From the IMG/VR virus record IMGVR_UViG_3300044568_001534, positions 1 through 42,025 of that record: DNA of 42,025 nt. One strand, written 5' to 3'. The DNA is from a virus. Within the stretch, counting starts at the first letter, position 1; each line of letters starts with the position of its first letter. The translations under genes were made by a program, and so were the position numbers. Positions 8,201-38,077 of the stretch are shown in pieces. A model generated the notes under the pieces. The model was not told the origin of the DNA, made no database searches, and saw only the letters and a program-made list of their open reading frames with translations.

Positions 8201-8598
8201 AATTGTATAGTAACTCATTTCATATTTCTAATGTTAAAATATTAGGAAACACAATTGGCACAGTTAACACTAGCAATGATTTATTAATTCAACCTACCTC
8301 GGGTATACTAACAGTTAACGATATTCATTTTTCATCAAATTACATTACTAATACATTAAATGATGTAATTCACTTACCTACAATTAAATTTACTGGAGGA
8401 GCAACCGGCATGTTAGTTCCACAAGGTACTGATTCTCAACGTCGTAACGTTCCAAATGTTGCTGAGTTTCGATATAATACTGAACAACATTTATACGAAG
8501 TATATGACGGCATACAATGGATTCCACAAGGCGACAACCCATTATTAATGTCAACAGTAGACGAAGAAATTACTCTTTGGGCTATTCTGCTTGGATAA
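5236..8598 (+). CDS. Large tail fibre with beta-helix domain, 1120 aa (pair A, copy 1)
   Basis: Residues 5-50 (MGRVSGPLLSENLLRNGEDL and FETDLLYLDV) form a conserved attachment-type N-terminus shared with the next fibre. Residues 233-305 (MIYVSINGVDTN, then FKTLKHALSVA, INSGTYVEDFPL, GVNVTGESIRSVTIKP) are a pectate-lyase-like beta-helix entry of the kind found in tailspikes. The helix continues to about residue 560 (IYGTYGIIADGPD). A 'D.NGNYQIGDV..INQKTG' module lies near 588-610. The shaft then repeats GNLTV/TGN.. units (690-840), and two GT-RP/RYN motifs occur near 915 and 1060. ATG 5236 is chosen over ATG 5248 because AAGGA lies six bases upstream of it. Depolymerase activity is possible but no catalytic residues can be assigned. 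Confidence 0.85.
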   Translation: MGIEMGRVSGPLLSENLLRNGEDLAFETDLLYLDVITGKVGIRNSAPQFDLFVNNFIKSTNLIVDTQLSFSSNYVVNTDKIQNILGSIIFTPDQSSDPKVVAAGLGIANLTISAGKNITNIVSDDVINLNPNGTGIVHFTTDTVNVNGNLHSTGTITADGNIIIGNETTDSVIFNALVDTTLVPILHNTHNLGSLSKRWKTIYTSDIKGTSTLLALNDIILDNTRLATTTGNMIYVSINGVDTNLGYHKRSPFKTLKHALSVATTGCQIFINSGTYVEDFPLLIPQGVNVTGESIRSVTIKPSIATNTNDAFLLNDETSVSSLTIQDFFYNSATNTGYAFKFAPGYNSTYKSPYIQNITVITKGSVTSLADPLGFLQGDAGAGIYLDGSVAAPTSNTPSCLFNTVTLITPNQNAITATNGVRVEWINSFTYYAKRGIFLINGIEGFASIGNTAAGYDSIVGFYGQSGITLTGPNAKTVTVNVSNIGLITIVNISSNAESGIYISPGGTRWIINLGKFGAEFRGINSANIYGTYGIIADGPDTLAYICGHNFGYIGSGANSLNDPSTTDSTNEVISLNYGVIYYDSVDHNGNYQIGDVLYINQKTGQVLFDARSMHFNEDGNITLQSDSHLTVVDFFKIQTGNIKIFNNTISSIVGEISLHAVSDIRLNTNIFVTGSLGISDDLTVAGNVYVGNELVDTTAISANFVSSIIPNTNNTYTLGTNLLRWDVLRSQIIHIDSILITDNTVTTSVPGTDLELFASNTGRIYVPLNDVQIDNNLTVENNTTVTGNTSLQDVEITGTTTLTGNITQTGNIDITGNLINQDNIIQDGVGLFLDIPNITIQDNLITPITSGSDLVIYGGVLQGAILENLKITNSILENIWQNASTDYEKSIVFTPIGTGNVVINSNKSIILPIGTNSTQPLSNAGEIRFNSDTTLFDGYLPSGMVSFYSLFDTDRNTYITPELTPGTNDNIFRFATNGTVKAKITATELYSNSFHISNVKILGNTIGTVNTSNDLLIQPTSGILTVNDIHFSSNYITNTLNDVIHLPTIKFTGGATGMLVPQGTDSQRRNVPNVAEFRYNTEQHLYEVYDGIQWIPQGDNPLLMSTVDEEITLWAILLG

Positions 8599-21107: not shown

Positions 21108-24100
21108 ATGGCTGAATTTAAGTTAGGTAGAATTAGATTTGTATGGCAAGGTCCTTGGACTACCGGAACATCTTACATAGTTGACGACGTGGTAAACAGG
21201 GGTGGTAAAAGTTATATTTGTGTAGTAAATCATACGGCTGCGGCTAGCTTTACTACTGATATTTCTACAATACCGAGTAAATGGAATTTAGTTGCAGATG
21301 GCACAAGTTGGAGGGGCGATTGGCTTCCATCTACAGCGTATGAAGCAGGCGATCAAGTAAAAAATGGCGGTATTGTATATATTTGTTCAACAGGTCACAC
21401 TTCTGCAACTTATGTAACTCCTACATATTTAGGGTTAGAATATGATTTTTCAAAATGGACTGTATTTGCATCTTCATTTAATTGGACAGGCGAATGGGCA
21501 CCTAATAGTAGATACAAATTAAATGATTTAATAAAATATAGTGGTATTACATATATTTGTAATTTAAATCATATTAGTAGTGCCAGTACAACACTTGGAT
21601 TAGAACCTGATTTATCAAAATGGTCTGTGTTTAGTGATGGTATTTCATATGTTGGAATGTGGACTACATCTACAAGATATAAATTAAATGATGTAGTAAA
21701 ATATGGTGCAGATTTATGGATCTGTACATTGTTTCATACATCATCTACTTTTATTGATGATTCAAGCAATTGGAGTATATTTGTTGCAGGTATTCAATTT
21801 GAAAACTCATGGAACAATGGAACAACGTATCAAGTAGGTGACATTGTTACTTATGGTGGTTATACGTATGTTGCAAAAACAGTTCATGAAAACAAAGCAC
21901 CGATAGCTAATCCTAACGATTGGGATGTATTTACTACTGGTTTTAATTTTAGAAGTGATTGGGATAGTACAACTGCATATAAGATCGGTGATGTAGTAAG
22001 ATTGCATGGATATACATATGTAGCACTATTTGATAGCACTAATGATTTACCTCCTAGTATAGTATGGAGTAAATTAAATTCTGGTATTTCATGGACAAAC
22101 AATGCACAAACGTATACATCAGTATCTGGTACTAACGTAACAGGTTCTGGTACCGGGGCACAATTTAACATTGTACGTTCTAAAACTGTATATACAATAA
22201 CTGTAACTTCAGGTTATGCAGGTACTAGTTATGTTACTGGTAATACTATTAAGATATTAGGTTCAGCAGTAGGCGGTCTATCACCAGTAAACGATATTCT
22301 TATTACAGTTACTGCTACATCTGGTGAAATAACAGATATTACATGGACTGGTAAATCAGTAACTTGGACATTGGGTATTTCTTATTCTCTAGGTGATGTT
22401 GTAACGTTTGGTGCAAACAGTTACATTTGTTCACTTACTCATACTGCAGTACCTAGTAATAGACCGGATAACGACACCTCTGGCACAAATTGGAATGCAT
22501 TAGCATTAGGATCTGATGTTAACGCATTGACAACTCAAGGCGATATGTTATATTATGGCCAAACTGGTCCTACTAGATTGCCAGTCGGTATTGAAGGCCA
22601 AATTCTGCGTGTTACTAATGGTTATCCAACATGGTCAAATTATGGATTAATTAATAATTTAGTGTATGTAGGGCCATTAGGATCTGATGTTGCTGCTCCT
22701 CAGGCAGGATTAACTATTGATAAACCGTGGAAATCAGTTAGGTTTGCATGTCATCAGATTGAACATGGATATCAAAATCCAAATGCTAAATCATTAATAC
22801 TAAGAAACAAGCAATTTATTATTAAAGAAGTTAATAATTTTTTATCGTATACATATAAAGTTTCAATTACTGGTACATCAGGCGGCGCGTTAACCTCACC
22901 TAATACAGCAATGCTATCTGTAAATATGCCAATTCGTTTTGCAAATACAACTGGTAACGTGTCAATATCTACGACGTATTATGTTAAACAGATTCTTAGT
23001 TCAACATTATTTACTATTTCGACAGCAGTTGGTGGAACTGCATTTACTGCAAGTGGTTCGGGAACAAATACCGGTACATTTTATTACGATCAAACAAAAG
23101 CTGAACGTGATGCAGGTATTATCGTTGAAGCAGTTGCACATGATTTAAGTAGATTGGGTACACAAAAAACTACTGCTGCTGCATTAGCATATTTTAATAC
23201 CGCCGGTACAACTTATATTACTACAACTACTGGATATGAAGTATTACAATTTACCAGTGCTGTAAATTATTTGTCAACATTATTAGGAAATGTATTAACC
23301 AATACTATTCCAACTTTTAATTATCAAATATTAAATGGTGCAAGCGTTACTGCTGCACAAATTACTGATTTAACAATTACTGCAGAAACTGGAGTTGTTA
23401 GTACTGCACAGAATTTAGTTTCAATTGTTACTACTGGTCTTACTTCAGGATCTGCAGCTGCAGTACCAACTGCAATTGTTCCAAATACAACAATATCAGT
23501 TAAGACTGGAACATATACTGAAATTTTACCAATCGTGCTACCTGCAAATACTGCAATCGTAGGCGATGAATTACGTAATACTGTAATACAACCTGCACTT
23601 GCTAATCCTAATATAGCAACATCTGCATTAAAAACACAATTAGCACTAACACGGTTTAAAACAGTAATTCCAAATTTAATTGCAAATACTACAATTACAC
23701 CTACTAGTGGAAATACTACTGCACAAGTTACAACATTACCTGCAGGTAGCACAGGGTCGTTGACTGCAATTAGTAATTTAAAAACTAGTTTTGATATTGT
23801 ATACGGCTTAGTAGCAAACGGTTTGGGTGGAGAATCAAGTATTGTCCGTCCATTGCCGACTGGCTATAATACCACATTAATAAATGTTGCGTATAGCGCA
23901 AGTGGAAATTTAACAGGTAACACTACCGGTTACGGAGATGCAATTACACAAATTCAACAAAACTATGCGTTTATTGCAGCTGAGATTTCAGCAGTTATCG
24001 TTGGTCAAGGAACTGTTACATCTGCATTTGATGCAAAAGGATATCGAGATACTTCTTATATTTTAGATTCATTAATTTATGATTTAACATATGGTGGTAA

Positions 24101-27100
24101 TTCTCAAAGTAACATTGCAGGTAGTTCGTATTATTCGTTGTATGTATTAAGCATTTTATCAGTTGACAAAACACCATTTGTTACTGCAATTACTCGATTA
24201 AAAACTATCATTTCGCCAATCATACAACAAACAGTACTTTCTACTGCACAATTTATTATTACACAAAATGTATCAGGAACTGCAGGTTCTGTAAATGCTG
24301 GAAAATTTGCAGAAGAAAGATTACAAAATATTATTAATTGGATTAATAACGGAACTAGTGATACAGGAGTTGCACCATATACTGGTTGGACTAGTTCTGA
24401 ATTACAAACTGCTTATAATGCGTTAATTAGCCAATCTAGCAATATCCAATCAGATGCAGTATCTTGGTGCCAGAAATATTTTCAATCTATACCATTTAGT
24501 ACTACATTGGCATATCGTGATGCTGGTTTAATAATTAATAATTTAGCATATGATATGATTTTTGGTACAAACTTTAATGCAATCCAAACAGGTCGTTTAT
24601 ATAATAGAGCAACTACACGTGAAATTGCATTAAGATCTACTAATGAATTAAAATTAACACTTGGTTCAATTAACTTTATGTATTATAAAGCTAAACAAAT
24701 TGCTGCAAGTGGTGCATCTGTTCAACTACAAACAACAATTGATGATATTAGTAATTTCTTAACAGGTGGTGCGTCACCTCCAAACATTACAATGCCACAA
24801 CCGGCATTACCTGCATCATCATATACTGGTGTACCAGGTACTGTAATATCAGGAGGTGGTGATGGATTCGCTGCATTTACTATAAACAGAATTACTAATA
24901 CCAATGGATATTATGCATACACGGTTACACCAACATCTGCTGGGGCAAATTATACTACTTCTAGTAAAATAAAAATATTAGGCACTAGTATTGGTGGCGC
25001 AACTCCGGTAAATGATATTGTTCTTAATGTAACACGAGTTACAACAGGCGGCGTAGTTGCGGCTACGTATTCTGATGCAATTGCAGCAGCTGGTTTAATT
25101 GAATCAAATAGACAATTTGTATTAGCTGAAATTATTGCATATATTGATACAAACTATTCATCAATTACTACCGATTCTACATATTCTGTTACAAAAACAC
25201 AACGAGATGCTAGCTATATATTAGATGCAATTAAATTTGATTTAATGTATGGAGGTAATTGGGCGTCTCAGAACGCAGGAATGTCATACTATTCGGCACT
25301 ATATGGTACACAAATAACATCAGGGTTTACTACTGCATTTGTTAATACTGTTGGGTATATTAGTACACTATTACAATTGATTGTAATAGGTAACACCGTT
25401 AGTAGTCCGCTGCAAGTTGTTATACCGCAAGTTGTTCCGCCTATTACACAAATAGTAGGAGCACTAAAAGATGCTACTCAAATTGCTGCATTAACTACGA
25501 TAATTACTAACTTTATCACTAATGGTTTAACTAACGGTGCTCCTGTAGTTACAGTAACTACTATTGCAACACTTGATACATTTACATCAAACGGACACGG
25601 TTTAAATAATGGCGACATTGTTATACCACAAGCAACTTCAAACGGATTAGTTTCAACTGTTATTGGATATGGTACACAATATTTTGTAGTTTCGTCTAAT
25701 ACAAATACATTTAAATTATCAGCAAGTTACAATGGCGCTGCATTAACTACATTTACAAATGGTACTGGATTATCGATTAAACTTCAAAAAATTGTTATGC
25801 CAAGTTTAACATGGGTTAACTCGACTGGTATTGCTGCGTATACTGCAGTTACTTCTCTAATATCAACATATCAAACATCAGTTGTTACATATTTAACTAC
25901 TAATTTTTCAGCGTTGCAATACCTTTCATTATACGTATCGCGCGATGTGAATAGTGTAGTAATTGCAACACTGTTAGATATGCTGTTAGGTAGTAATTAT
26001 GCAGGAATACACACAGGCCGTGCATATAACAGACTACAAGATTACAAAGTACAAGGATATGAAAAAACTGCAACGATTGCATCATTAAATTATTTAGAAA
26101 CATTACTTTCTAGTACATTATCTAGTTCAGTTTATTCGTCTCAGTTGTCTAGAATAGATACTTCAATTTATTTAATTATTAAAATGTTAGAATTTGGTTC
26201 AGGAATTTTACCTGAAATCAACGGAACTGTAACATATAATAATAATTTAGGTATAATTAAAGGTTCAGAGATTTTACGTGCAAATATTCCATTTCTTACA
26301 GCAGAAGCAGTTGCGTTGTATAAAACTAGATTTGGTGGTAATGTTACTACAACTACTACCGGGTCTAATGAAATTACAACAAGTGCAGCTCATAATTTTG
26401 TAGTTAACGATCCGGTAGTATTTTCCGGTGTAAGTACAAGTGGACTAGTTGTTAACACTACCTACTATGTATTAACTGTTACGTCGCCTACTACATTTAC
26501 TGTTACTGCAGTTGCAGGGTATTTAAACAGTAATCAAGGTACAGTATATCCTCCAGTATCTGTAACTAGCTCATCTCCTACGGGATTTACAGTTGCATAC
26601 TCATTTAGTCCTAATAAAGTTATTACTGATCTTACATATTTGTTAAATGGTATTGTATATGATTTACAATATACAGGTAACTATAAAAGTTTAAGATATG
26701 TCGAATTGTTTAAAAATGAAATTAATGGATCACAAGCAAGCAACATGCTTTTAGTACGGAATGGTACTGGTTTAAGAAATTTAACAACTAGTGGTTTAGT
26801 TGGAACATTAACTAATCCAAATGCATACGGCACTAAACGTCCAACTGCAGGTGCATATGTGTCACTTGATCCAGGGTTTGGACCAAATGATTCAAATAGC
26901 TGGATCATAACTAGATCACCATATGTACAAAACGTTACTACGTTTGGTACAGGATGCGTAGGTTTAAAAATTGATGGCGCGTTACATAATGGTGGTAATA
27001 GATCTGTAGTTGCTAATGATTATACACAAGTGTTATCAGATGGTATTGGTGTATGGTGTACAGGTAATAATTCACTTACTGAATTAGTATCAGTGTTCTC

Positions 27101-30100
27101 ATATTACGGGTATTCTGGTTATTTGGCAGAATTAGGTGGACGGATTCGTGCAACAAATGGTAATAGTTCATACGGTACTTGGGGTGTTATTGCCGAAGGA
27201 ACTGATGTAACTGAATTGCCAATCACTTGTATTTTAGATAATCATTCACAACAAGCACAAATTTCCAATGTATTTACAGATGGAACAAATAAAGTGTTAC
27301 GTCTTGAATATAGTAATGCTGGTAGCAATTATACAAATACTGTAATGACAATTAGTGGTTCTGGATATAATATTGCAGCAACAGCTGACGAATTCCGTGA
27401 TGCTGCTGTATTTGAAACTAGAATTATTGATTTAAATGATGGTAACGGGTATGGTGGTACTAATTATGGTACTGCAATCAACGCTGCTCAAAATGGTACA
27501 TCTACCTATATTACTATTGCAGCTACTGATATTGCGTTGAGCACTGCATATACAGGTATGAGAATACAACTTACAGCAGGTTCAGGTGTTGGCCAATATG
27601 GTAATATTTTATCATATAATAATGGTACAAAAATTGCATTAGTATATAAAGATAGCTTTACTAATTTAACAGTAACCGCAACTGCAATTACAAATAATTT
27701 GTTAACTGTTGCTAGCACTGCTAAGATGTATGTAGGAATGCCAATTTATTTAAACACTACTGGTAATGGGTTAACTGCTAATACGTTATATTATGTTATT
27801 GCTGCAAACTTTTCAAGTACACAATTTGCAGTAAGCACTGTATTAGGTGGATCTGCAGTTACTATTACAGCAACTGGATCAGGATTAACCGTTACATTAT
27901 ATGCTGCAGGATGGGATCATGTAGTTGCAGGAACTGCTATTGTATCTACGTTAGATTTAACTACTCAATATAGTATTGAGCCAAGAATTAGTTATACTGA
28001 TCCGGGGTATGCTGCAACGGCAAGAACCTTATCAACAACCGGTACTTGGGGTGCTGCAACTTACGGTAATAGTCGTTATATTTCTATTGCTACTGCTACT
28101 AGTAATTTAACACAGTATTCAAATGATGGCAAAACATGGGCTGCAGGAGGAACATTACCGTCATCTGCTAACTGGGCTAATGTAGTATATGGCGGCGGAC
28201 AAGGTGCTACTGCGTATGCAGTTATTGGTGGTCTAGGCGGTTCTGGCGCAATTCTTACAGCAGTATTAGGTAGTGCAAACAGTGTTGGTGCACCGGGTGC
28301 AGATCAAGTATTAAGCGTAACTATTGTTAATGGCGGTGTTGGGTATTACACAGCGCCAACTATTGTCTTTACTCCAGTAAGTGGTGGAACTGGTGCAATT
28401 GCAACTTGCGCAGTATTAAATGGTTCAATTACTAGTGTAACAATTATAAGCAACGGTACTGCATATGCAGTAGCTCCTACTATATCTGCTGCAACTGATA
28501 GAGTTACAAAACTTGTAGTTACTGCATGGGGTACTGGTTATACATCAGCACCGACTGTAACATTATCAGGTGGCGGCTCTAGTAATCAAGCAACTGGTAC
28601 TGCAGTGTTAACTAATAATGGTGTTAGTAGTATTACAATAGGAAATAATGGCGGAAGCGGTTATACATCTACTCCGACTGTATCTTTTGTTGATCCTACT
28701 GCAAAATATGTTACTATTGCGTCTAATGTAGCAGCTGCAGCGTTTTTATCTGCATCATCGACTGCAACTACTAACTGGACTGCTAGTACAACAGTTCCTC
28801 AAGCGTATGCAGATATTGCATATGGTAATGGGGTGTACGTTGCAGTTGGAGGCACATCGGGTGCAGCATCAACCACTGATGCAGTTACATGGGTTTCGCG
28901 TACAATTCCAACATTAGGCGCAGGTACATATTCTGCTGTTGCATATGGTAATGGATACTTTGTTGCAATTTCGACAGGAAACTTAGTTACTGCAATTTCA
29001 ACAAATGGCTTATCGTGGAGTGCAGGCGGTAGTTTACTATCGAATACAACATGGACAAGTGTTACATACGGTAATGGTAGATTTGTTGCAGTTGCAAGCG
29101 GCGCAAGAGTTACTGCATTTAGTATTGATAACGGTACTACTTGGACAACTTCGGCCAGCTTACCACCTGGTGGTAATGCTTGGTCAACTATTAGATATGG
29201 ACAAGGTGTGTTCTTTGTAATTGCACAATCATCTACATCTGCAGCTACTAGCCCAGACGGTATTAACTGGACTTTAAGAACAATGCCAGGTACAAGTACA
29301 AATTGGAAAGGTTTAGCATTTGGTAGCATTTCAAGAAATCCGTTATGGGTTGCAACGTCAGCTACTTCAGGTACAACTGCAGCTTCGATTCGTACTGGTG
29401 CGCAAACACTAGGCAGAATGAAAGCATTATCAGGCATATTAAGCGAAATACGAATAATTGAACCTGGTTCAGGTTATCCAAAGGGTACAGTAACTGCATC
29501 AACAATAACTACAAACTTAATTACTGTTGATAATACAGAGAACTTAATAGATAGGCAACCTGTAGTATTTACAGAGACTGGTGCTAGTGGATTAACTGCA
29601 GGTGTTACATACTATGTAATTGGATCAACTATTACAAGTACACAATTTAAAGTTAGTGCAACTGCAGGTAGTGCAACTGCGATAACATTAATTAATTCTA
29701 CGTTAACTGGTACATATAGAGCAGGACCTATATTAACACAAACTGATCCTAATAAAGTAATTACTGCAGCGTTAACTGTTAGGACAGGCGACGGTGCATT
29801 AGGTAATCCATCGTTTAGTAATAGAGGTACTAGCAACACAACAGCAACTGCAATTACATTAGGTGACGGATATGCTGATTTATATCAACCGAGCACATAT
29901 ATTACAGTTAACAATTTGTTTTCAGTACCACAAGCTGGATCAAATATATCGTTCGCGTCAATACCTAACACATGGTATAAATTAGTATCTGTTGGTAATG
30001 TATTAGGAAACGCTGGAGAATACAGTGCAACGTTCCAGATTAGTCCAGGACTTAGTGTATTACTTGCACCGGCATACGGTGATACGATTACAACAACGAA

Positions 30101-30674
30101 TAAATATAGTCAAGTACGGTTAACAGGACATGATTTCTTGTATATCGGAACAGGTAACCAATCAACTACTAACTTCCCATATGTAATTCCAACAACTGCA
30201 GATATTGCAAAACAAGAATTAGCAAGTGGCGGTGGTCGTGTGTTCTTTACGAGTACAGATCAAGATGGTAACTTTAATGTAGGTAACTTGTTTGGCGTGC
30301 AACAATCAACAGGTACTGCAACATTAAATGCTAGTGCATTTAATTTATCAGGACTACAAAGTTTGCAATTAGGTTCAGTATCATTAGGAATTGGAAGTGC
30401 AGTAATTACGCAGTTCTCAACAGATCCGTATTTTACTGCAAATAGTGATAGTATTTTACCTACACAACGAGCAATTAAATCATATATTACATCACAAATT
30501 GGTGGCGGTTTAAGTTCATTAAACGTAAATACATTAACAGCTGGTGTTGTGTATATTGCGAATAATACAATATCGACTACTAATGGTGGTCAAATAAACG
30601 TAACAGCTAAGATGAATTTCACAGGCGGCATTGACGGCGCGCCAGTTGCACTTTCATTCTTTATGCAACGATAA
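21108..30674 (+). CDS. Giant modular tail fibre/adhesin, 3188 aa (pair B, copy 2)
   Basis: This is a paralogue of the 2523-aa protein with the same frame of domains. N-terminus: MAEFKLGRIRFVWQGPW. About 11-470: seven CBM5/12-like repeats, with an 80-aa module wedged between repeats 6 and 7. About 520-890: beta-helix entry (LVYVGPLGSDVAAPQAGLTI, SVKTGTYTEILPIVLP). About 666-1860: six helical 'RD..YIL..I.YDL.YGGN' units, only one of which exists in copy 1. About 1885-2030: beta-helix core (RATNGNSSYGTWGVIAEG). About 2310-2770: a 7-bladed propeller interrupted in blade 2 by a 'GSGYTS.PTV' insert (about 2375-2545). C-terminus: DQDGNFNVGNLFGVQQSTG, FSTDPYFTANSDSILPTQRA. At 9.6 kb it is one of the largest fibre genes I would expect in a T4-like phage. 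It probably serves as a long fibre subunit. Confidence 0.88.
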   Translation: MAEFKLGRIRFVWQGPWTTGTSYIVDDVVNRGGKSYICVVNHTAAASFTTDISTIPSKWNLVADGTSWRGDWLPSTAYEAGDQVKNGGIVYICSTGHTSATYVTPTYLGLEYDFSKWTVFASSFNWTGEWAPNSRYKLNDLIKYSGITYICNLNHISSASTTLGLEPDLSKWSVFSDGISYVGMWTTSTRYKLNDVVKYGADLWICTLFHTSSTFIDDSSNWSIFVAGIQFENSWNNGTTYQVGDIVTYGGYTYVAKTVHENKAPIANPNDWDVFTTGFNFRSDWDSTTAYKIGDVVRLHGYTYVALFDSTNDLPPSIVWSKLNSGISWTNNAQTYTSVSGTNVTGSGTGAQFNIVRSKTVYTITVTSGYAGTSYVTGNTIKILGSAVGGLSPVNDILITVTATSGEITDITWTGKSVTWTLGISYSLGDVVTFGANSYICSLTHTAVPSNRPDNDTSGTNWNALALGSDVNALTTQGDMLYYGQTGPTRLPVGIEGQILRVTNGYPTWSNYGLINNLVYVGPLGSDVAAPQAGLTIDKPWKSVRFACHQIEHGYQNPNAKSLILRNKQFIIKEVNNFLSYTYKVSITGTSGGALTSPNTAMLSVNMPIRFANTTGNVSISTTYYVKQILSSTLFTISTAVGGTAFTASGSGTNTGTFYYDQTKAERDAGIIVEAVAHDLSRLGTQKTTAAALAYFNTAGTTYITTTTGYEVLQFTSAVNYLSTLLGNVLTNTIPTFNYQILNGASVTAAQITDLTITAETGVVSTAQNLVSIVTTGLTSGSAAAVPTAIVPNTTISVKTGTYTEILPIVLPANTAIVGDELRNTVIQPALANPNIATSALKTQLALTRFKTVIPNLIANTTITPTSGNTTAQVTTLPAGSTGSLTAISNLKTSFDIVYGLVANGLGGESSIVRPLPTGYNTTLINVAYSASGNLTGNTTGYGDAITQIQQNYAFIAAEISAVIVGQGTVTSAFDAKGYRDTSYILDSLIYDLTYGGNSQSNIAGSSYYSLYVLSILSVDKTPFVTAITRLKTIISPIIQQTVLSTAQFIITQNVSGTAGSVNAGKFAEERLQNIINWINNGTSDTGVAPYTGWTSSELQTAYNALISQSSNIQSDAVSWCQKYFQSIPFSTTLAYRDAGLIINNLAYDMIFGTNFNAIQTGRLYNRATTREIALRSTNELKLTLGSINFMYYKAKQIAASGASVQLQTTIDDISNFLTGGASPPNITMPQPALPASSYTGVPGTVISGGGDGFAAFTINRITNTNGYYAYTVTPTSAGANYTTSSKIKILGTSIGGATPVNDIVLNVTRVTTGGVVAATYSDAIAAAGLIESNRQFVLAEIIAYIDTNYSSITTDSTYSVTKTQRDASYILDAIKFDLMYGGNWASQNAGMSYYSALYGTQITSGFTTAFVNTVGYISTLLQLIVIGNTVSSPLQVVIPQVVPPITQIVGALKDATQIAALTTIITNFITNGLTNGAPVVTVTTIATLDTFTSNGHGLNNGDIVIPQATSNGLVSTVIGYGTQYFVVSSNTNTFKLSASYNGAALTTFTNGTGLSIKLQKIVMPSLTWVNSTGIAAYTAVTSLISTYQTSVVTYLTTNFSALQYLSLYVSRDVNSVVIATLLDMLLGSNYAGIHTGRAYNRLQDYKVQGYEKTATIASLNYLETLLSSTLSSSVYSSQLSRIDTSIYLIIKMLEFGSGILPEINGTVTYNNNLGIIKGSEILRANIPFLTAEAVALYKTRFGGNVTTTTTGSNEITTSAAHNFVVNDPVVFSGVSTSGLVVNTTYYVLTVTSPTTFTVTAVAGYLNSNQGTVYPPVSVTSSSPTGFTVAYSFSPNKVITDLTYLLNGIVYDLQYTGNYKSLRYVELFKNEINGSQASNMLLVRNGTGLRNLTTSGLVGTLTNPNAYGTKRPTAGAYVSLDPGFGPNDSNSWIITRSPYVQNVTTFGTGCVGLKIDGALHNGGNRSVVANDYTQVLSDGIGVWCTGNNSLTELVSVFSYYGYSGYLAELGGRIRATNGNSSYGTWGVIAEGTDVTELPITCILDNHSQQAQISNVFTDGTNKVLRLEYSNAGSNYTNTVMTISGSGYNIAATADEFRDAAVFETRIIDLNDGNGYGGTNYGTAINAAQNGTSTYITIAATDIALSTAYTGMRIQLTAGSGVGQYGNILSYNNGTKIALVYKDSFTNLTVTATAITNNLLTVASTAKMYVGMPIYLNTTGNGLTANTLYYVIAANFSSTQFAVSTVLGGSAVTITATGSGLTVTLYAAGWDHVVAGTAIVSTLDLTTQYSIEPRISYTDPGYAATARTLSTTGTWGAATYGNSRYISIATATSNLTQYSNDGKTWAAGGTLPSSANWANVVYGGGQGATAYAVIGGLGGSGAILTAVLGSANSVGAPGADQVLSVTIVNGGVGYYTAPTIVFTPVSGGTGAIATCAVLNGSITSVTIISNGTAYAVAPTISAATDRVTKLVVTAWGTGYTSAPTVTLSGGGSSNQATGTAVLTNNGVSSITIGNNGGSGYTSTPTVSFVDPTAKYVTIASNVAAAAFLSASSTATTNWTASTTVPQAYADIAYGNGVYVAVGGTSGAASTTDAVTWVSRTIPTLGAGTYSAVAYGNGYFVAISTGNLVTAISTNGLSWSAGGSLLSNTTWTSVTYGNGRFVAVASGARVTAFSIDNGTTWTTSASLPPGGNAWSTIRYGQGVFFVIAQSSTSAATSPDGINWTLRTMPGTSTNWKGLAFGSISRNPLWVATSATSGTTAASIRTGAQTLGRMKALSGILSEIRIIEPGSGYPKGTVTASTITTNLITVDNTENLIDRQPVVFTETGASGLTAGVTYYVIGSTITSTQFKVSATAGSATAITLINSTLTGTYRAGPILTQTDPNKVITAALTVRTGDGALGNPSFSNRGTSNTTATAITLGDGYADLYQPSTYITVNNLFSVPQAGSNISFASIPNTWYKLVSVGNVLGNAGEYSATFQISPGLSVLLAPAYGDTITTTNKYSQVRLTGHDFLYIGTGNQSTTNFPYVIPTTADIAKQELASGGGRVFFTSTDQDGNFNVGNLFGVQQSTGTATLNASAFNLSGLQSLQLGSVSLGIGSAVITQFSTDPYFTANSDSILPTQRAIKSYITSQIGGGLSSLNVNTLTAGVVYIANNTISTTNGGQINVTAKMNFTGGIDGAPVALSFFMQR
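21138..22521 (+). repeat. Seven CBM5/12-like repeats in the 3188-aa fibre
   Basis: Units include GDWLPSTAYEAGDQVKNGG, GMWTTSTRYKLNDVVKYGA and VTWTLGISYSLGDVVTFGA. Repeats 6 and 7 are separated by an unrelated 80-residue module (about 22110-22360). Confidence 0.78.
23103..26710 (+). repeat. Six dispersed alpha-helical RD-YIL-YDL repeats
   Basis: The unit is R-D-x-x-Y-I-L-x-x-I-x-Y-D-L-x-Y-G-G-N, seen at residues 667, 980, 1137, 1366, 1612 and 1841 (the last as TDLTYLLNGIVYDLQYTGN). These are amphipathic helices in an otherwise beta-rich protein, separated by variable insertions. Copy 1 of the pair has only one unit, at its residue 584. Confidence 0.7.
28041..29410 (+). repeat. Seven-bladed propeller with an insertion in blade 2 (3188-aa fibre)
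   Basis: Blades such as AYADIAYGNGVYVAVGG and TTWTSVTYGNGRFVAVASG are visible. Bases 28219-28800 interrupt blade 2 with three 'G.GY..(A/T)PT(V/I)' units and then return to the propeller. Confidence 0.68.
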
Positions 30675-30689
30675 TGGAGAAATAAATTA

Positions 30690-31010
30690 ATGGCAACAGG
30701 AAGACTTAGCAATTTTGCAATTGCTGCAACAACTAATACAACAGTGTATACCGTACCAACCGGATATTACACTGTTTGTAATGTATCGTTAACAAACAGA
30801 AATGCAACTGCAATTAAAATAAGAGTAGCAATTGCATCAATTGCTACTCCTAACGTACAAGAATGGATTGAATATGACACAGTAGTTGTTCCTAATGGTG
30901 TGTTTGAAAGAACAGGTTTAGTGCTAAATGCTGGACTAAATATAGTAGTATATTCAGATACCGCAGGTGTTGGTTGTACAGTATACGGTATTGAAACATC
31001 AACTACGTAA
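30690..31010 (+). CDS. Small beta-sandwich virion protein, 106 aa (family member 3 of 3)
   Basis: The product reads MATGRLSNFAIAATTNTTVY, then TVPTGYYTVCNVSLTNRNAT, a conserved-looking 'N-R-N-A-T-A-I-K-I-R-V-A-I' strand, and ends LNIVVYSDTAGVGCTVYGIE. Length, strand order and location (15 bases behind a large fibre gene) match the products of 3848-4189 and 12734-13066. No signal peptide is present. ATGGAGAAA precedes the start. It is probably a small virion protein that works with the giant fibres. The function is unproven and the family is known to me only as phage hypotheticals. Confidence 0.74.
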   Translation: MATGRLSNFAIAATTNTTVYTVPTGYYTVCNVSLTNRNATAIKIRVAIASIATPNVQEWIEYDTVVVPNGVFERTGLVLNAGLNIVVYSDTAGVGCTVYGIETSTT

Positions 31011-32364: not shown

Positions 32365-33444
32365 ATGACAATTGACGTTTTAACATTAAATGCGTATTTA
32401 GAAGAAAATCAAACATTATTAAATTCAGGCGAGTACACAGCTGCATACTCAGCTGCGTATGCAACTGCATACTCAAGTGGTTGTATAGCTGCAGCCAGTT
32501 CGTTCCTTCAATCGCAAATTAATCAAACACCGTGTAATGTATCATTATGGTGTTCTATTCCGATGATGACCGGTGGCGTGACGGGAACCGTATTAGTTTG
32601 CGATACAAGTGGCTATTTTCGATGTGGTGCATCGTGTTCGTGGACAGTACCAAACGGGATAACCTGCGCACAATTTCAAATGTGGGGTGCAGGCGGCGGC
32701 AGCAATGCCGGATGCTGTTGTGGTGGCGCAAACAATGGCGGAACAGGTGCGTATGTATCTGTTATTATGCCAGTTACTGCTGGTACTGTATATACATTAT
32801 GTGCAGGGTGTGCGACTTGCTGTTACCCAACACCCGGCAGTAGCTATTGCGGCCGCGGATGTGCATCCTATGTAACCGGTACTGGAATGTGTAATGTATG
32901 TGCCGAAGGTGGCGCCAATTTTCACTGGCAATCAATATTAGATCAAGGGTGTTACGGATCAGCTGGTGGCGGTTATTGGTGTACTATTGAATACTATCCA
33001 AATAGTGGTACTACTGCCGGCCCATGTGTTTGTGGTAGTAATAATTATTGCAGTAACTCATGCGCTACATGCGGCGAAGTCGTAGTTCATAGAAACTCAC
33101 TAGTTAATTTTTATGGATGTGCAACAAACGGAAAACTTATGGGCATTCCGGGACTACATGGTGGGTTATGTCTGGACACTAACCAATATGGACATTTTAC
33201 GAATCCGCCAGTAATTAATACAACGCATACCGGGGCATTTGACAGCGCGAGCAATTGCGGCTGTCGAGTATGTTTTACTAGTGAAAATAATTTAGGAGGC
33301 TGTCTATGCAGTGGCGGAATAAATGGTACGTCAGTTCAACAATTTCCCGGAGCAGGCGGTTTTGCGCATCATGCAATGGGCGGAAATACTACCGGCTGTG
33401 GCGATGCAGGGCGTATGGGTATGGTACGTGTTACTTACAGATAA
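32365..33444 (+). CDS. Cysteine-rich, glycine-rich adhesin-like protein, 359 aa (pair C, copy 1)
   Basis: I count 33 cysteines in 359 residues. Residues 1-45 are an Ala/Tyr-rich, probably helical tether (YTAAYSAAYATAYSS). The core from about residue 75 (VCDTSGYFRCGASCSWTVP, then FQMWGAGGG) matches the general pattern 'WTVP.GVT..Q..MWGAGGGG' of glycine-rich phage fibre-tip domains. Here, however, CCC, C..C and CC clusters are interspersed (AGCCCGG, CAGCATCC). The end is GCGDAGRMGMVRVTYR. No signal peptide is seen, so it would be made in the reducing cytoplasm. It probably forms a receptor-binding tip; the cysteines could make disulfides after lysis or bind metal. AAGGATAACAACAA precedes the ATG. 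Confidence 0.82.
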   Translation: MTIDVLTLNAYLEENQTLLNSGEYTAAYSAAYATAYSSGCIAAASSFLQSQINQTPCNVSLWCSIPMMTGGVTGTVLVCDTSGYFRCGASCSWTVPNGITCAQFQMWGAGGGSNAGCCCGGANNGGTGAYVSVIMPVTAGTVYTLCAGCATCCYPTPGSSYCGRGCASYVTGTGMCNVCAEGGANFHWQSILDQGCYGSAGGGYWCTIEYYPNSGTTAGPCVCGSNNYCSNSCATCGEVVVHRNSLVNFYGCATNGKLMGIPGLHGGLCLDTNQYGHFTNPPVINTTHTGAFDSASNCGCRVCFTSENNLGGCLCSGGINGTSVQQFPGAGGFAHHAMGGNTTGCGDAGRMGMVRVTYR

Positions 33445-33459
33445 AATATAGGAATAATA

Positions 33460-34116
33460 ATGAAACAGAAATTTACACAAAAAATACCAAACGAAATTTA
33501 TATCGATGACTTTTCAGATAATAAAGTTATGGAATTAGAATACAATGGACCAGATACACTGTTATTAGAAGTTGACGGTAATGGGACTGCATTTAAAATT
33601 GTTGAAGAAGCAAGACCGATGCTTGAACCGACATCATATATGTATCATATTGAATTAAATGCTGCAGATGCAATTGAAGCAGCACATTATATTTACACGC
33701 ATGCTGATGAGCATATTTATGAGAATATTGATATTCCAAATCCAGATGGGTCAATTTATATTGCAGTTTCAAATCCAAGAATTCAAGATTACTATCGATT
33801 AACTTATCAACCGGCTGGGTTAGATATGCCAGGAATTTGGCATTTTAATCTAATTACTAGAAGTATGCATTCAACTATCGAATTAAAAGTAATAAATGAT
33901 TATAACAATGCTAAGAAAAAATTATCACCGATTTTATTAACTGCCGAAACACAGACTGCGTTTGATGATTATACTGCAAAGGTAGAAGCATGGATTGCAG
34001 ATACAGCAGATTTATGTCCATGGAAATATATTGAATTTCCTGCAGGAGACATACCAAAATTACCATTAGTTCTTATTAGGTTAATTGCAGAATTAGATTC
34101 GTACGGGGTTGTATAA
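33460..34116 (+). CDS. Unknown protein between Cys-rich paralogues, 218 aa; candidate assembly factor
   Basis: Not recognised. The protein is acidic and has only one cysteine, in sharp contrast to its neighbours. Residues 20-60 are strand-rich (VMELEYNGPDTLLLEVDGNG). Residues 70-130 mix helix and strands (ADAIEAAHYIYTHADEHIY, SIYIAVSNPRIQDYY). The C-terminal third is helical (DDYTAKVEAWIADTAD, LVLIRLIAELDSY). The stop codon overlaps the start of the second Cys-rich gene (TAATG at 34114-34118), so the two are probably translationally coupled. Its position between two adhesin-like genes and its different composition suggest a fibre-specific chaperone or adaptor. No sequence motif proves this. 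AGGAATAATA precedes its ATG. Confidence 0.72.
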   Translation: MKQKFTQKIPNEIYIDDFSDNKVMELEYNGPDTLLLEVDGNGTAFKIVEEARPMLEPTSYMYHIELNAADAIEAAHYIYTHADEHIYENIDIPNPDGSIYIAVSNPRIQDYYRLTYQPAGLDMPGIWHFNLITRSMHSTIELKVINDYNNAKKKLSPILLTAETQTAFDDYTAKVEAWIADTADLCPWKYIEFPAGDIPKLPLVLIRLIAELDSYGVV

Positions 34117-35192
34117 TGTCTAGTGTATTAATATACAATGCAATCAAACAAAATTTTGCGTATAATCGATCAGCATCAACAGCTGCAATTACTACAATTG
34201 CACAATCTGCAGGTACTGCTGCAGGTATTGCTGCCGGCGGTGGTCCGTCAACATGCTTAACAGCAGCGAATGTGGGTAATCAAATTGGTTTCTCACCATC
34301 TACTAGTATAGAAACTTGGAAAACTATTCCACGGTTAGCTGGATATACTGGAAGCATAGCAGTATGTGATACAAGTGGCTATTTTCGATGTGGTGCATCA
34401 TGCACATGGACAGTACCTACAGGAGTAACATGTGCTGACTTTCAACTATGGGGACCTGGTAGTGGTACTGGTACTAATTGCTGTTGTGGCGGTGCACCGC
34501 ATGGCCCAACTGGCGCGTTTGCATCGGTTGTTATGCCAGTTACTGCTGGTTCTGTATATACAATATGTGCAGGGTGTGCGTATTGCTGTTATGCATCACA
34601 AACAACTCCAGGATTGTGTGGTGGACCATCATATGTAACTGGTCCAGGCCTAAATAATTTCTGCGCAGATTCCGGTATAAGTTGTGTATGTAATTGGCGG
34701 GCAAGTTTACCCGGTCCAGCTAGCGGAACACTAGGATGGGGATTAACATATCCAGGTGGCAGCGGTTGTCAATTCCCAAGTGGTAATAATTGTGGACCTG
34801 AATCATGCAGTGGATGGAATTTTTGTTGGGATAGTTTAAACGATTCAGTAACAATACAAGATTTTTCATTTAGTTGTGTAACAAGATTCTATGGTACTGC
34901 TACCGGTAGTTGTGTATACGGTTTAGCCGGAATGTATCCTAAGTTCATGATTAGTGAAACTATGTGCGGTATTTCAGTTGCAGCACCGGTCTATGGATTT
35001 GAAAATTCAACACAGTGTATATATTGTTGGAATGGAAACACTTGTGCAGGTTGTATGGCTGCTCCAATGTGCGGTTCTGGATTTCTAAGAAATCCAGGAA
35101 GTGGTGGTTATGCTAGTTCAGTATATGGCGGGTGTAATGCATGTTACGGTGATTCGGGGCGAATGGGAATGGTTTGCGTTAGATTCAAATAA
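34116..35192 (+). CDS. Cysteine-rich, glycine-rich adhesin-like protein, 358 aa (pair C, copy 2)
   Basis: I count 31 cysteines in 358 residues. It shares with copy 1 the core CDTSGYFRCGASC.WTVP.G, the CCCGG cluster, VMPVTAGSVYTICAGCAYCC and the C-terminal GDSGRMGMVCVRFK. The N-terminal tether (MSSVLIYNAIKQNFAYNRS) and residues about 180-330 are divergent. The start overlaps the stop of the 218-aa gene. A 32-base stretch (34368-34399) is identical to 32602-32633. This suggests a tip adhesin of alternative specificity, built on a conserved Cys-clustered scaffold. It is the last gene of the fibre block. Confidence 0.82.
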   Translation: MSSVLIYNAIKQNFAYNRSASTAAITTIAQSAGTAAGIAAGGGPSTCLTAANVGNQIGFSPSTSIETWKTIPRLAGYTGSIAVCDTSGYFRCGASCTWTVPTGVTCADFQLWGPGSGTGTNCCCGGAPHGPTGAFASVVMPVTAGSVYTICAGCAYCCYASQTTPGLCGGPSYVTGPGLNNFCADSGISCVCNWRASLPGPASGTLGWGLTYPGGSGCQFPSGNNCGPESCSGWNFCWDSLNDSVTIQDFSFSCVTRFYGTATGSCVYGLAGMYPKFMISETMCGISVAAPVYGFENSTQCIYCWNGNTCAGCMAAPMCGSGFLRNPGSGGYASSVYGGCNACYGDSGRMGMVCVRFK

Positions 35193-35249: not shown

Positions 35250-36242
35250 ATGAAAAAAGCATTTTTTATTAGCGGCGGAGCCGGAAGAGTATTATGTGCA
35301 ATCCCAGCACTTGAAAAGTTTGCAAAAACTAACCCAGAATTTATTATTGTTGCAGAAGGATGGCCTGAATGCTTTTCAGGCCATCCATTATTGCAAGACA
35401 AAGTTTTTAATGTTTCTCACAAAAATTTATTTGAACAACATCTAAAAGATTGTGAACTTATCACCCCTGAACCATATCGGTTAAATCAATATTTCACACA
35501 GCAATGTGATCTTATTCAGGCATTTGACATTTTAATAAATGGCGAATCATCAGATCCAACAACTTATAATATTACTATTGATCTAAGTAAAAAAGAACAG
35601 ATCACAGGTTATAATATTGTTGACGAGGTACGATCAGTTAAGAAAAAAGAAAAAGTCATTGTATTACAGCCATTTGGCAGTACTGCGCATCAACAAGGAA
35701 AATTTATTTTTGATACATCTGGTAGAAGTTTTGAATTATCAGACATTTATAAATTAATTGAATCATTAACAAAGAGCTATGCTGTTATTCTCATGTCCCC
35801 AATTGACATTCCGTCGACTACTGACTTAGGGATAGCACATCCTAAAAATTTAGATTTACGATCATGGATGGGCATTATTAATGCCGCTGATTATTTTATT
35901 GGTTGTGACAGTGTTGGTCAACACATTGCTTATGCATTAAAAAAACCAAGTACTATTGTTATCGGGGCTACATTTCCAGAAAACATTTCGTATCCTAAAT
36001 GTCCATATTTTACAATTGTTGATAATGGCATAAACAAAAGAAAATATTCTCCTATTAGGATTACAATGGATGAGTCAGGTGATCGTATAAATGAGAATCT
36101 AATGATTTTAGATAACGCAGTGTTTAGTAAAATTATCGATTCAGTAAACAAGAAATTATCTGTAAACAAAAAACCAAGTAATGTACAAGAGTTGCCTAGA
36201 CAAATAAACCCACCGTTTACAAAAAAAAAGTTGACAGCATAA
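35250..36242 (+). CDS. Family-9-like glycosyltransferase (heptosyltransferase-like), 330 aa
   Basis: The GT-B two-domain layout is visible. An N-terminal Rossmann entry, FFISGGAGRVLCAIPALEKF (residues 5-24), is comparable to the 'GD.l...PalralR' start of ADP-heptose transferases. A C-terminal sugar-nucleotide region carries GCDSVGQHIAYALKKPSTIV (about 218-237, with Asp220), comparable to the family 'G.DSG..HlAaAlg.P.v.lfG'. The length of 330 aa is normal for the family. The C-terminal tail is lysine-rich (KKKLTA), and its codons double as the -35 box of the next promoter. It would transfer a sugar to an acceptor I cannot name: host lipopolysaccharide, a virion protein or modified DNA. Its proximity to a carbamoyltransferase suggests joint action on one product. 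Confidence 0.72.
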   Translation: MKKAFFISGGAGRVLCAIPALEKFAKTNPEFIIVAEGWPECFSGHPLLQDKVFNVSHKNLFEQHLKDCELITPEPYRLNQYFTQQCDLIQAFDILINGESSDPTTYNITIDLSKKEQITGYNIVDEVRSVKKKEKVIVLQPFGSTAHQQGKFIFDTSGRSFELSDIYKLIESLTKSYAVILMSPIDIPSTTDLGIAHPKNLDLRSWMGIINAADYFIGCDSVGQHIAYALKKPSTIVIGATFPENISYPKCPYFTIVDNGINKRKYSPIRITMDESGDRINENLMILDNAVFSKIIDSVNKKLSVNKKPSNVQELPRQINPPFTKKKLTA

Positions 36243-36283: not shown

Positions 36284-38077
36284 ATGAATACAGGATACAT
36301 AGCTGGAATTTCCAGAGGACACAATAGCGGAGTATGTTTACTACATAATGGTAAAATCGTGTTTTCAATAGAAGAAGAACGATTATCACGCGTTAAATAC
36401 GACGGTAGTCCATTAGCTGCACTAACACTTATTAAACAATATACAGATACAATTGATTTTTTAGTAGTTGCACATACGTCATCGTTAGCGTCATCTTCGC
36501 CACAAATTGAATTTCAAAATGATGACATATATTCTGGATTAGCTAGAAAATTAGGATTAATTAGCCGCAATGTTTTTCCACCCGGCCAGCATCCTCAGGT
36601 AATTGATGTATCATCATTGCATCATAAAATGCATGCAGCCTGTTCATTTTATCGATCTGGATGGGATGATGCAGTTGCATTAGTAGTAGACGGTGCAGGT
36701 ACATCGTTTCCGTTTAAACTAGCTAATGGGGAGCCGACATGGTTTTGGGAAGTAGAATCAATTATAGACTGTTCATATCCGTTTGGATTTAAAACATTAT
36801 ATAAACATTATGCTACTCGAGAATCAGTTATTGGTGGTATTTCTCAAATACCATCTGATATGCTACATGAGTCAGGATCAACGCATACTGCATTAATTTC
36901 AGATACTGCAGGTATTACTAAAGTGTATGAAGCAGTTACTGAATACTGCGGCTTTGACGGAATTGATGCTGGTAAAACTATGGGATTGTTCCCGTATGGT
37001 AAACCTAATGAGTCAATACCTCCACTATTCAGTGACGCTACTGACGAACCATTATCAAACAGAAGTTTATTTATTCCTAAATATCCAGGAACTGCAACTG
37101 TTAATCAAAATATGTATAGTTTTTTAACAACTGACAATTCTGTAACTGAATTTACTACATTAGAAAATCGAAGAGATTTTGCATATGCATGTCAACTTGA
37201 AACACAACAACAAGTGTTACGATTAATTCGAAAAGCATGTGAGATGTCTGGTAAAAAACAAGTTGTTATTTCTGGCGGATATGGATTAAATTGCGTTGCA
37301 AATTATTTTTATTTAGATCAATTACGTGATGAAGGTATTGAAATATATGTAGAACCTATATCAAATGATGGCGGAACTGCGATCGGTGCTGCATTAATGC
37401 ACTGGTATCAAACTTCAGCTAGTATGGAAAAACAAGATCAATCAATATATCTCGGTCCGCATTATAATTATAGCACGGATGATATTAACGAGTTAGCTGT
37501 AAGTAATAATGGTACTATTATTGATGCAACCTACCGTGACATTGTTAAATTATTACGTGATAAACATATTGTAAGTATGTTTCAAGGTAGGTCAGAAAAT
37601 GGCCCGCGTGCATTAGGTAACCGATCTATATTGTTTGATCCAACATTTGAAGATGGTAAAGATTTTGTTAATAGCATTAAAAATAGAGAATACTTTAGAC
37701 CGTTTGCTGGCACAATCTTAAAAGAACATGTACATAAATGGTTTGATTTACGAGGTAAAGATGAGTCTCCACACATGATGTATGCAGTAAATTGCCAACC
37801 TGGAATAGCAGAAAAAATACCAAGTATTATTCATGTCGATGGCACTTGCAGAATACAAACAGTAACCGCTGACCAAAATACACACTTTTACAATCTAATT
37901 AATGAATTTTATAAAGAAACAGGTGTTCCTATTTTGTTTAATACGTCATTTAATCTTGGTGGCGATCCTTTGGTTGAAACCTTAGAAGATGCTATTGATA
38001 CATTAGTAAAAAGCAAAATTGAATATTTATATTTGCCTGAATATAACAAATTACTAACATTTAAAAATAATAATTAA
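36284..38077 (+). CDS. NodU/CmcH-type O-carbamoyltransferase, 597 aa
   Basis: This family makes carbamoyl-adenylate from carbamoyl phosphate and ATP and transfers the carbamoyl group to a hydroxyl, often on a sugar. All family landmarks are present. The N-terminal ASKHA-like start is GISRGHNSGVCLLHNGKI (residues 8-25), followed by EEERLSRVKYD. The metal-binding histidine motif LHHKMHA (H113, H114, H117) is followed by FYRSGWDDA and VVDGAG (D136). SGGYGLN lies at 330-336, GRSENGPRALGNRS at 435-448, and YFRPFAGTI and NTSFNLGGDPLVE from N553. The length of 597 aa is normal for full-length members. AAGGAT precedes the ATG. Expression from its own sigma70-type promoter indicates early synthesis, unlike the late structural genes around it. 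The substrate is unknown: a glycan, a nucleotide or a modified DNA base. Confidence 0.95.
   Translation: MNTGYIAGISRGHNSGVCLLHNGKIVFSIEEERLSRVKYDGSPLAALTLIKQYTDTIDFLVVAHTSSLASSSPQIEFQNDDIYSGLARKLGLISRNVFPPGQHPQVIDVSSLHHKMHAACSFYRSGWDDAVALVVDGAGTSFPFKLANGEPTWFWEVESIIDCSYPFGFKTLYKHYATRESVIGGISQIPSDMLHESGSTHTALISDTAGITKVYEAVTEYCGFDGIDAGKTMGLFPYGKPNESIPPLFSDATDEPLSNRSLFIPKYPGTATVNQNMYSFLTTDNSVTEFTTLENRRDFAYACQLETQQQVLRLIRKACEMSGKKQVVISGGYGLNCVANYFYLDQLRDEGIEIYVEPISNDGGTAIGAALMHWYQTSASMEKQDQSIYLGPHYNYSTDDINELAVSNNGTIIDATYRDIVKLLRDKHIVSMFQGRSENGPRALGNRSILFDPTFEDGKDFVNSIKNREYFRPFAGTILKEHVHKWFDLRGKDESPHMMYAVNCQPGIAEKIPSIIHVDGTCRIQTVTADQNTHFYNLINEFYKETGVPILFNTSFNLGGDPLVETLEDAIDTLVKSKIEYLYLPEYNKLLTFKNNN

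Follow-up and report, generated by a model that had tools for sequence, protein, structure and literature searches.

A conserved phage cassette of two cysteine-dense, glycine-rich probable fiber tips and a probable assembly chaperone

What role could be played by two neighboring phage genes whose glycine-rich products consist of about 9% cysteine, and what is the gene that lies between them? This question is raised by the virus record IMGVR_UViG_3300044568_001534 of IMG/VR, positions 1 to 42,025 of which (42,025 nucleotides, hereafter the window) were analyzed in this study. Gene A (32365..33444) and gene B (34116..35192) encode paralogous cysteine-dense proteins, and gene X (33460..34116), whose product of 218 amino acids (aa) has a single cysteine, separates them; all three are on the forward strand. 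The original prediction, made from the sequence alone, had described a tandem pair of glycine-rich adhesins of about 359 aa each with 33 and 31 cysteines. The open reading frames confirm the pair and both cysteine counts, and the length is 359 aa for A and 358 aa for B. The best explanation, to which as a whole we give a probability of roughly 60%, is that A and B are receptor-binding tips that share X as a chaperone and are stapled by disulfides after release from the host.

Cysteine makes up 9.2% of A (33/359) and 8.7% of B (31/358) in the translated reading frames, and 0–0.9% of the other proteins of the fiber region (0–0.6% in most of the neighboring fiber proteins), with the exception of one 106-aa protein that has two cysteines. 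Against a background of 1.1%, which is generous, the binomial probability of such counts is 4e-20 for A and 3e-18 for B. Both proteins combine a WTVP and WGAGGG framework with C, CC, and CCC clusters, and no signal peptide is seen at the N-terminus of A or of B, as had been stated before. At the DNA level, A and B share stretches of 107 and 121 nucleotides that are 79–83% identical in the core (32581-32833 versus 34347-34599), including the near-identical CDTSGYFRCGASC coding stretch, and this core reflects either recent gene conversion or strong constraint.

Profile search and structure prediction place A and B among glycine-rich fiber tips, in agreement with the framework proposed originally. 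The PHROG 35878 profile matches both proteins over their whole length (E 3e-64 for A and 2e-63 for B). An AlphaFold model of A built from 57 homologs (predicted local distance difference test score, pLDDT, 80.7; predicted template modeling score 0.80) contains helices at residues 5–20 and 23–33, then a beta domain, and finally a distal part of irregular structure. The helices (approximately residues 5–33, 32377..32463, forward strand) are predicted to form a docking or trimerization segment, and their "DVLxYNALxExN" motif is conserved in both A and B. When the model of A was compared with the PDB using Foldseek, the Pam3 fiber 7ypx was the top match (E 9e-6), followed by the Bxb1 tail tip 9d93 (E 4e-5) and Pam3 7yfw (E 1e-3); ALK/LTK entries come after the phage matches, with the TNF-like/glycine-rich domain of ALK at E 4e-3 and weaker. 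Pam3 gp24 consists of helical docking, TNF-like, and glycine-rich domains, and host recognition is assigned to its glycine-rich loops (PMC9608196). The fold matches of A cover the TNF-like beta-sandwich and the glycine-rich domain, and the model together with the conserved motif supplies the predicted helical docking segment.

Sequence comparisons gave less. A and B of the window do not match PF21722 (Gly_rich_2), which is matched by nine of the 57 aligned members (best 1.5e-5) and exceeds its curated cut-off in relatives from S-SSM7 and S-CAM1. In sequence searches of the PDB, only the N-terminal helix paired with the geminin coiled coil, at a non-significant E of 0.58, and nothing was found for S-SSM7; gp38 (6F45) was absent from these searches as well as from the 50 best Foldseek matches of A. 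Fold, homology, and gene position together make the fiber-tip role well supported, and we consider it highly probable that A and B are fiber tips, which would be located in the virion as trimers.

The original prediction had regarded the gene between A and B as unrelated, and this part is not supported. In the AlphaFold model of X (pLDDT 91.6), the N-terminal part is beta-structured and the C-terminal part helical, which, in a gene beside its fiber gene, is the layout of Tfa and Pam3 gp25 chaperones. X matches PHROG 9740 and shows profile homology over its length (approximately 180 columns; probability 97%, E 1.4e-11) to its counterparts in S-SSM7, Sf-FS3, and S-CAM phages. PF16778 (Phage_tail_APC) is in turn matched by the X proteins of S-SSM7 (1e-9) and Sf-FS3 (5e-11), which also match several PHROGs of the "tail fiber assembly" kind, and among predicted structures (BFVD) the model of X finds its counterparts in P-SSM2 (E 5e-15) and S-CAM1 (E 2e-6). 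Because of this layout, the profile homology, and PF16778 in homologs, X is very probably a fiber-assembly chaperone, and homology, architecture, and strict linkage suggest that it serves both tips. Since PF16778 is found in the homologs only, X is placed as a protein that works like such a chaperone and not as a Pfam member; it is a family separate from A and B, but functionally linked to them. The view of X as an unrelated passenger was accordingly discarded.

This linkage was assessed in 118 loci, namely those from two scans of viral contigs (queried with B and with the 57-member alignment) plus P-SSM2, AG-345-F15, and the window; the two scans overlap, so that the loci correspond to about 80 distinct contigs by contig names. 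With hidden Markov models for A/B and X, the order A-X-B is recovered in 107 of the 118 loci. Six of the 11 remaining loci are cut by contig ends (L016, L077, L093, L099, L108, and L116). The expectation that the cysteine core always flanks a gene of the 218-aa type thus holds for the great majority of loci, with departures in L074, where A is followed by a B-like protein and X gives way to a gene of 146 aa, and in L106/L107, where, as in L037/L053 (one contig), A is retained and a different head replaces B. In the L074 variant (7062-8561), the B-like tip is diverged and has another N-terminus, and the 146-aa gene has no PHROG match. On the tree of the family, the A/B label switches only 7 times versus 28–36 times in shuffles, which indicates that A and B are old paralogs. 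GTDB genome contigs were scanned twice with single proteins; neither scan yielded a relative, and thus no close cellular one.

The conserved clusters of cysteines that had been noted in A and B extend across 57–92 homologs. Among 92 non-redundant proteins (<85% identity), on which the cysteine statistics are based, cysteine content ranges from 6.1 to 12.3% with a median of 9.4%, and C91, C118, C119, C179, C223, and C229 are each present in about 95% or more. In alignment A1, C91, C153, C179, and C223 are invariant, and C87, C118, C119, C146, C149, C152, C206, and C229 occur in at least 90% of the members. The conserved core of A covers residues 87–180 (C87, C91, C117–C119, C146, C149, C152, C153, C166, and C179; 32623..32904, forward strand). 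When the tips of S-SSM7, Sf-FS3, and S-CAM phages are added, C91, C117 or C119, C146, C152, C166, and C179 recur in most of the proteins, and none of these recurring cysteines is present in the Bxb1 tip protein. In a by-eye reading of the alignment, the core cysteines sit in the loop that follows WGAGGG and in the one behind the next strand, at places where Bxb1 is glycine-rich.

Two of the core cysteines are evolutionarily coupled. Of the seven branches on which each of C87 and C152 changes, five are shared (hypergeometric p 2.7e-7), which remains significant at approximately 3e-4 after correction for the 1176 pairs tested. Both are present in 75 of the 92 proteins and both absent from 13, whereas C87 occurs alone in four and C152 alone in none. 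Residues joined by a disulfide would be expected to behave in this way, and those of a metal site with four cysteines would not.

Replacement heads offer a second view of the cysteines. The protein encoded behind X in L037 (7668-8366) retains the docking helix of B (26 columns, E 1.2e-7) and has 24 cysteines in 232 aa; its head beyond the helix bears no likeness to A/B, PHROGs, or Pfam. A protein of the same kind, with 23 cysteines in 238 aa, is encoded directly behind A in L106 (6947-7663), and Marine virus AG-345-P14 carries the same head on a different stem. The occurrence of an unrelated cysteine-rich head on the same docking helix suggests that selection favors cysteine density itself in this slot, independent of one fold. 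The second cysteine-dense head genes (L037:7668-8366, L106:6947-7663, and L146:5049-5897) are followed by a gene of 122–124 aa.

Taken together, A and B would be two paralogous fiber tips with which a contractile-tailed T4-like phage binds its receptor. Each would consist of an N-terminal helical docking/trimerization segment, a TNF-like beta-sandwich, and a distal glycine-rich domain whose stacked loops, according to the fold matches and the presumed position in the virion, would form the host-contacting end. X would act on both tips as an assembly chaperone of the Tfa or Pam3 gp25 type. In the A/B lineage, the loops of the glycine lattice have cysteine at many positions; these cysteines would be kept reduced in the cytoplasm while the tips fold on the chaperone, and would oxidize at lysis or later, the resulting disulfides stapling neighboring loops. 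Thin, variable loops stapled in this way could yield a rigid tip that resists proteases and shear while the loop ends stay free to vary. C87–C152, which co-change on the tree, is the best candidate for a disulfide pair. Intramolecular disulfides are probably the main role of the cysteines. More tentatively, and somewhat short of an even chance in our estimate, the cassette may represent a receptor-binding tip in which a dense disulfide network, able to evolve and formed only once outside the host, covalently staples the glycine lattice. Such a tip would be the phage counterpart of disulfide-rich binding scaffolds, and it would have been selected on two unrelated head types and in at least two deep phage lineages.

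Several observations weigh against this explanation. The template modeling scores of the Foldseek match to 7ypx are modest (0.31/0.41), and X of the window has neither a fold match in the PDB at E ≤ 0.001, including the solved gp25 and TfaMu, nor a Pfam match, its link to PF16778 running through homologs only. Besides C87–C152, none of the 1176 cysteine pairs is significant after correction (C236–C269, for instance, has p 1.1e-4), and the test takes branches as exchangeable. Cysteine counts show no bias toward even numbers (45 of 92 are even), and some cysteines are therefore free, inter-chain, or metal-bound. A search of 15 phage records for the sulfhydryl oxidase PF04777, which had no positive control, found none; glutaredoxin, present in nine of these records, is too common to be informative. 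Virion proteomics for the A/B family was not found, the proteomics study that was found covering S-SM1 and not P-SSM2. The P-SSM2 proteins expressed in PMC3426561 carry GI numbers, and the one assigned among them is PSSM2_224, outside the cassette.

The cysteines of the same chaperone-assisted tips might instead bind metal (Zn, Fe, or Fe–S), for example through the A-type motif CxC-x5-CxxxC-xx-C, with the metal rigidifying the tip or contacting the host. Dense C..C and CxC spacings such as C146-C149-C152-C153 and C221-C223-C229-C233-C236 would suit this chemistry, to which a reducing cytoplasm is no obstacle and with which cysteine numbers free of parity bias are compatible. However, the sole strong coupling is pairwise and does not involve a block of four residues, the A-type motif is not retained in B (C221 is present in 95% of A and 33% of B proteins), and no known metal-binding family is matched, which makes metal binding an unlikely main role.

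Alternatively, the key thiols of these tips might act between molecules, joining A to B, subunit to subunit, or tip to baseplate as in Pam3, or bonding covalently with thiols of the host surface. Fibers are disulfide-linked to the baseplate in Pam3 (PMC11821841) and likewise linked in Milano (PMC10811340), and odd cysteine counts are common in the A/B family. The linking residue of Milano (Cys38), however, lies near the fiber N-terminus, whereas the cysteines of A and B crowd the distal TNF-like/glycine-rich part and the docking helix is poor in cysteine in most members, so that we consider mainly intermolecular bonding improbable. Among the three chemistries originally offered, namely oxidation-triggered hardening in seawater, metal binding, and thiol chemistry with the host surface, the first fares best because of the C87–C152 coupling and the precedents for disulfides in virions (PMC10811340, PMC11821841).

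The genes around the cassette bear on whether A and B are virion parts at all. Upstream of A lies a gene for a giant fiber of 3188 aa with four CBM_5_12 stretches (21108..30674), a possible shaft for the tips, followed by a gene for a small fiber-related protein of 106 aa (30690..31010) that matches PHROG 11338 "tail fiber protein" (E 1.4e-9). Behind B are genes for a weakly glycosyltransferase family 9 (GT9)-like protein (PHROG 8954; 35250..36242) and, further downstream, a Nol-like carbamoyltransferase (36284..38077), these four also being on the forward strand. Of 98 loci, 97 have the GT9-like gene within 1.5 kb downstream of B; the Nol-like gene lies downstream of B in all 82 loci of sufficient length, and a large related fiber upstream of the cassette in 92 of 95. 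That A and B act instead as intracellular or secreted host-directed proteins, for instance as thiol buffers or as surface modifiers together with the linked transferases, would agree with these constant neighbors and with the negative outcome for virion proteomics, but is very improbable given the fold of a solved fiber, the shared chaperone, the absence of a signal peptide, and the position directly behind tail fibers. The GT9-like and Nol-like genes might have an effect on the host surface or the virion. Two giant fiber proteins (2523 and 3188 aa) with carbohydrate-binding modules of the CBM_5_12 type are encoded in the region 8711-30674 of the window, as is a protein of 1339 aa that has a lectin domain (Laminin_G_3).

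Members of the cassette family are present in known cyanophages. In P-SSM2, the cassette corresponds to PSSM2_304, 305, and 306, followed by the same GT9-like and Nol genes; PSSM2_304-306 and the GT9-like gene are all annotated as "hypothetical". The proteins of PHROG 35878 and PHROG 4205 from P-SSM2 (PSSM2_304/306), S-SSM7 (SSSM7_114-116), Sf-FS3, S-CAM1, and S-CAM3 are direct homologs with the same cysteine density in the same slot between a large fiber and the GT9/Nol genes, and all carry the annotation "hypothetical". They differ from A and B in their docking N-termini, and S-SSM7, Sf-FS3, S-CAM1, and S-CAM3 have three tandem cysteine-dense tips (24–36 cysteines each) followed by an X-like gene, compared with two tips here.

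The capsid protein of the window points to another lineage. This major capsid protein (21-1022) is 68–74% identical to those of proteobacterial jumbo T4-like phages (Phosso, Vibrio 2.275.O, PA5oct, and GAP32), and its closest relatives are not cyanophages. Among 30 contigs with the cassette, a capsid protein of the window type (76–100% identity to the window) occurs in the window and five others, and L057 adds a sixth with a fragment of such a protein; another five have a capsid protein with about 36% identity to that of the window, and two carry psbA. These differing capsid types place the cassette in two deep phage lineages, and the combination of a jumbo T4-like capsid with a tip cassette that cyanophages also carry points to module exchange between distant lineages.

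Comparison with characterized systems separates what is known from what is new. Pam3 gp24–gp25 (7YPX) resembles the cassette in the three domains of A and in an adjacent chaperone with an N-terminal beta part and C-terminal helices as in X; Pam3 virions contain gp24, and gp25 was not reported in them (PMC9608196). Pam3 differs from the cassette family, which has two or three tips at 9% cysteine, and it has no sequence-level match to A/B and no significant structural match to X. S16/T2-type gp38 is similar in that the fiber tip is a glycine-rich lattice whose distal loops vary (PMC9608196), but it lacks the TNF-like domain, has no sequence match, and is not described as having a cysteine density like that of A and B. 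The tail-tip protein of Bxb1 (9d93 chains Qa/Qb), second-best in fold, is likewise a glycine-rich tip; the chain is, from its size and composition, probably gp33, which has one cysteine and 30% glycine. In Milano, virion proteins are stabilized by many disulfides despite their synthesis in the cytoplasm (PMC10811340), but these bonds join sheath, tube, baseplate, and fiber bases, and its structural proteins have 2.1% cysteine compared with 9% in the A/B tips. The original statement that no described phage receptor-binding system has such chemistry therefore stands for the density of cysteines; it stands neither for the architecture, which is that of Pam3 gp24–gp25 (PMC9608196), nor for thiol chemistry in phage tails generally. 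No paper describing the A/B pair, naming the P-SSM2 cassette genes, or reporting a cysteine-rich cyanophage fiber was found in the open-access literature, and as far as found there, the cysteine-dense version of this known adhesin–chaperone architecture is new.

Receptor-binding proteins of marine cyanophages are largely uncharacterized. The cassette offers a probable role for three genes of the model phage P-SSM2 long called "hypothetical" and for their counterparts in S-SSM7 and S-CAM phages, and predicts which gene encodes their chaperone. It also raises the question whether host-contacting tips are hardened by disulfides after lysis; if so, maturation of these phages would include a step timed by redox conditions, and their tips would be a disulfide-rich binding scaffold with natural variation.

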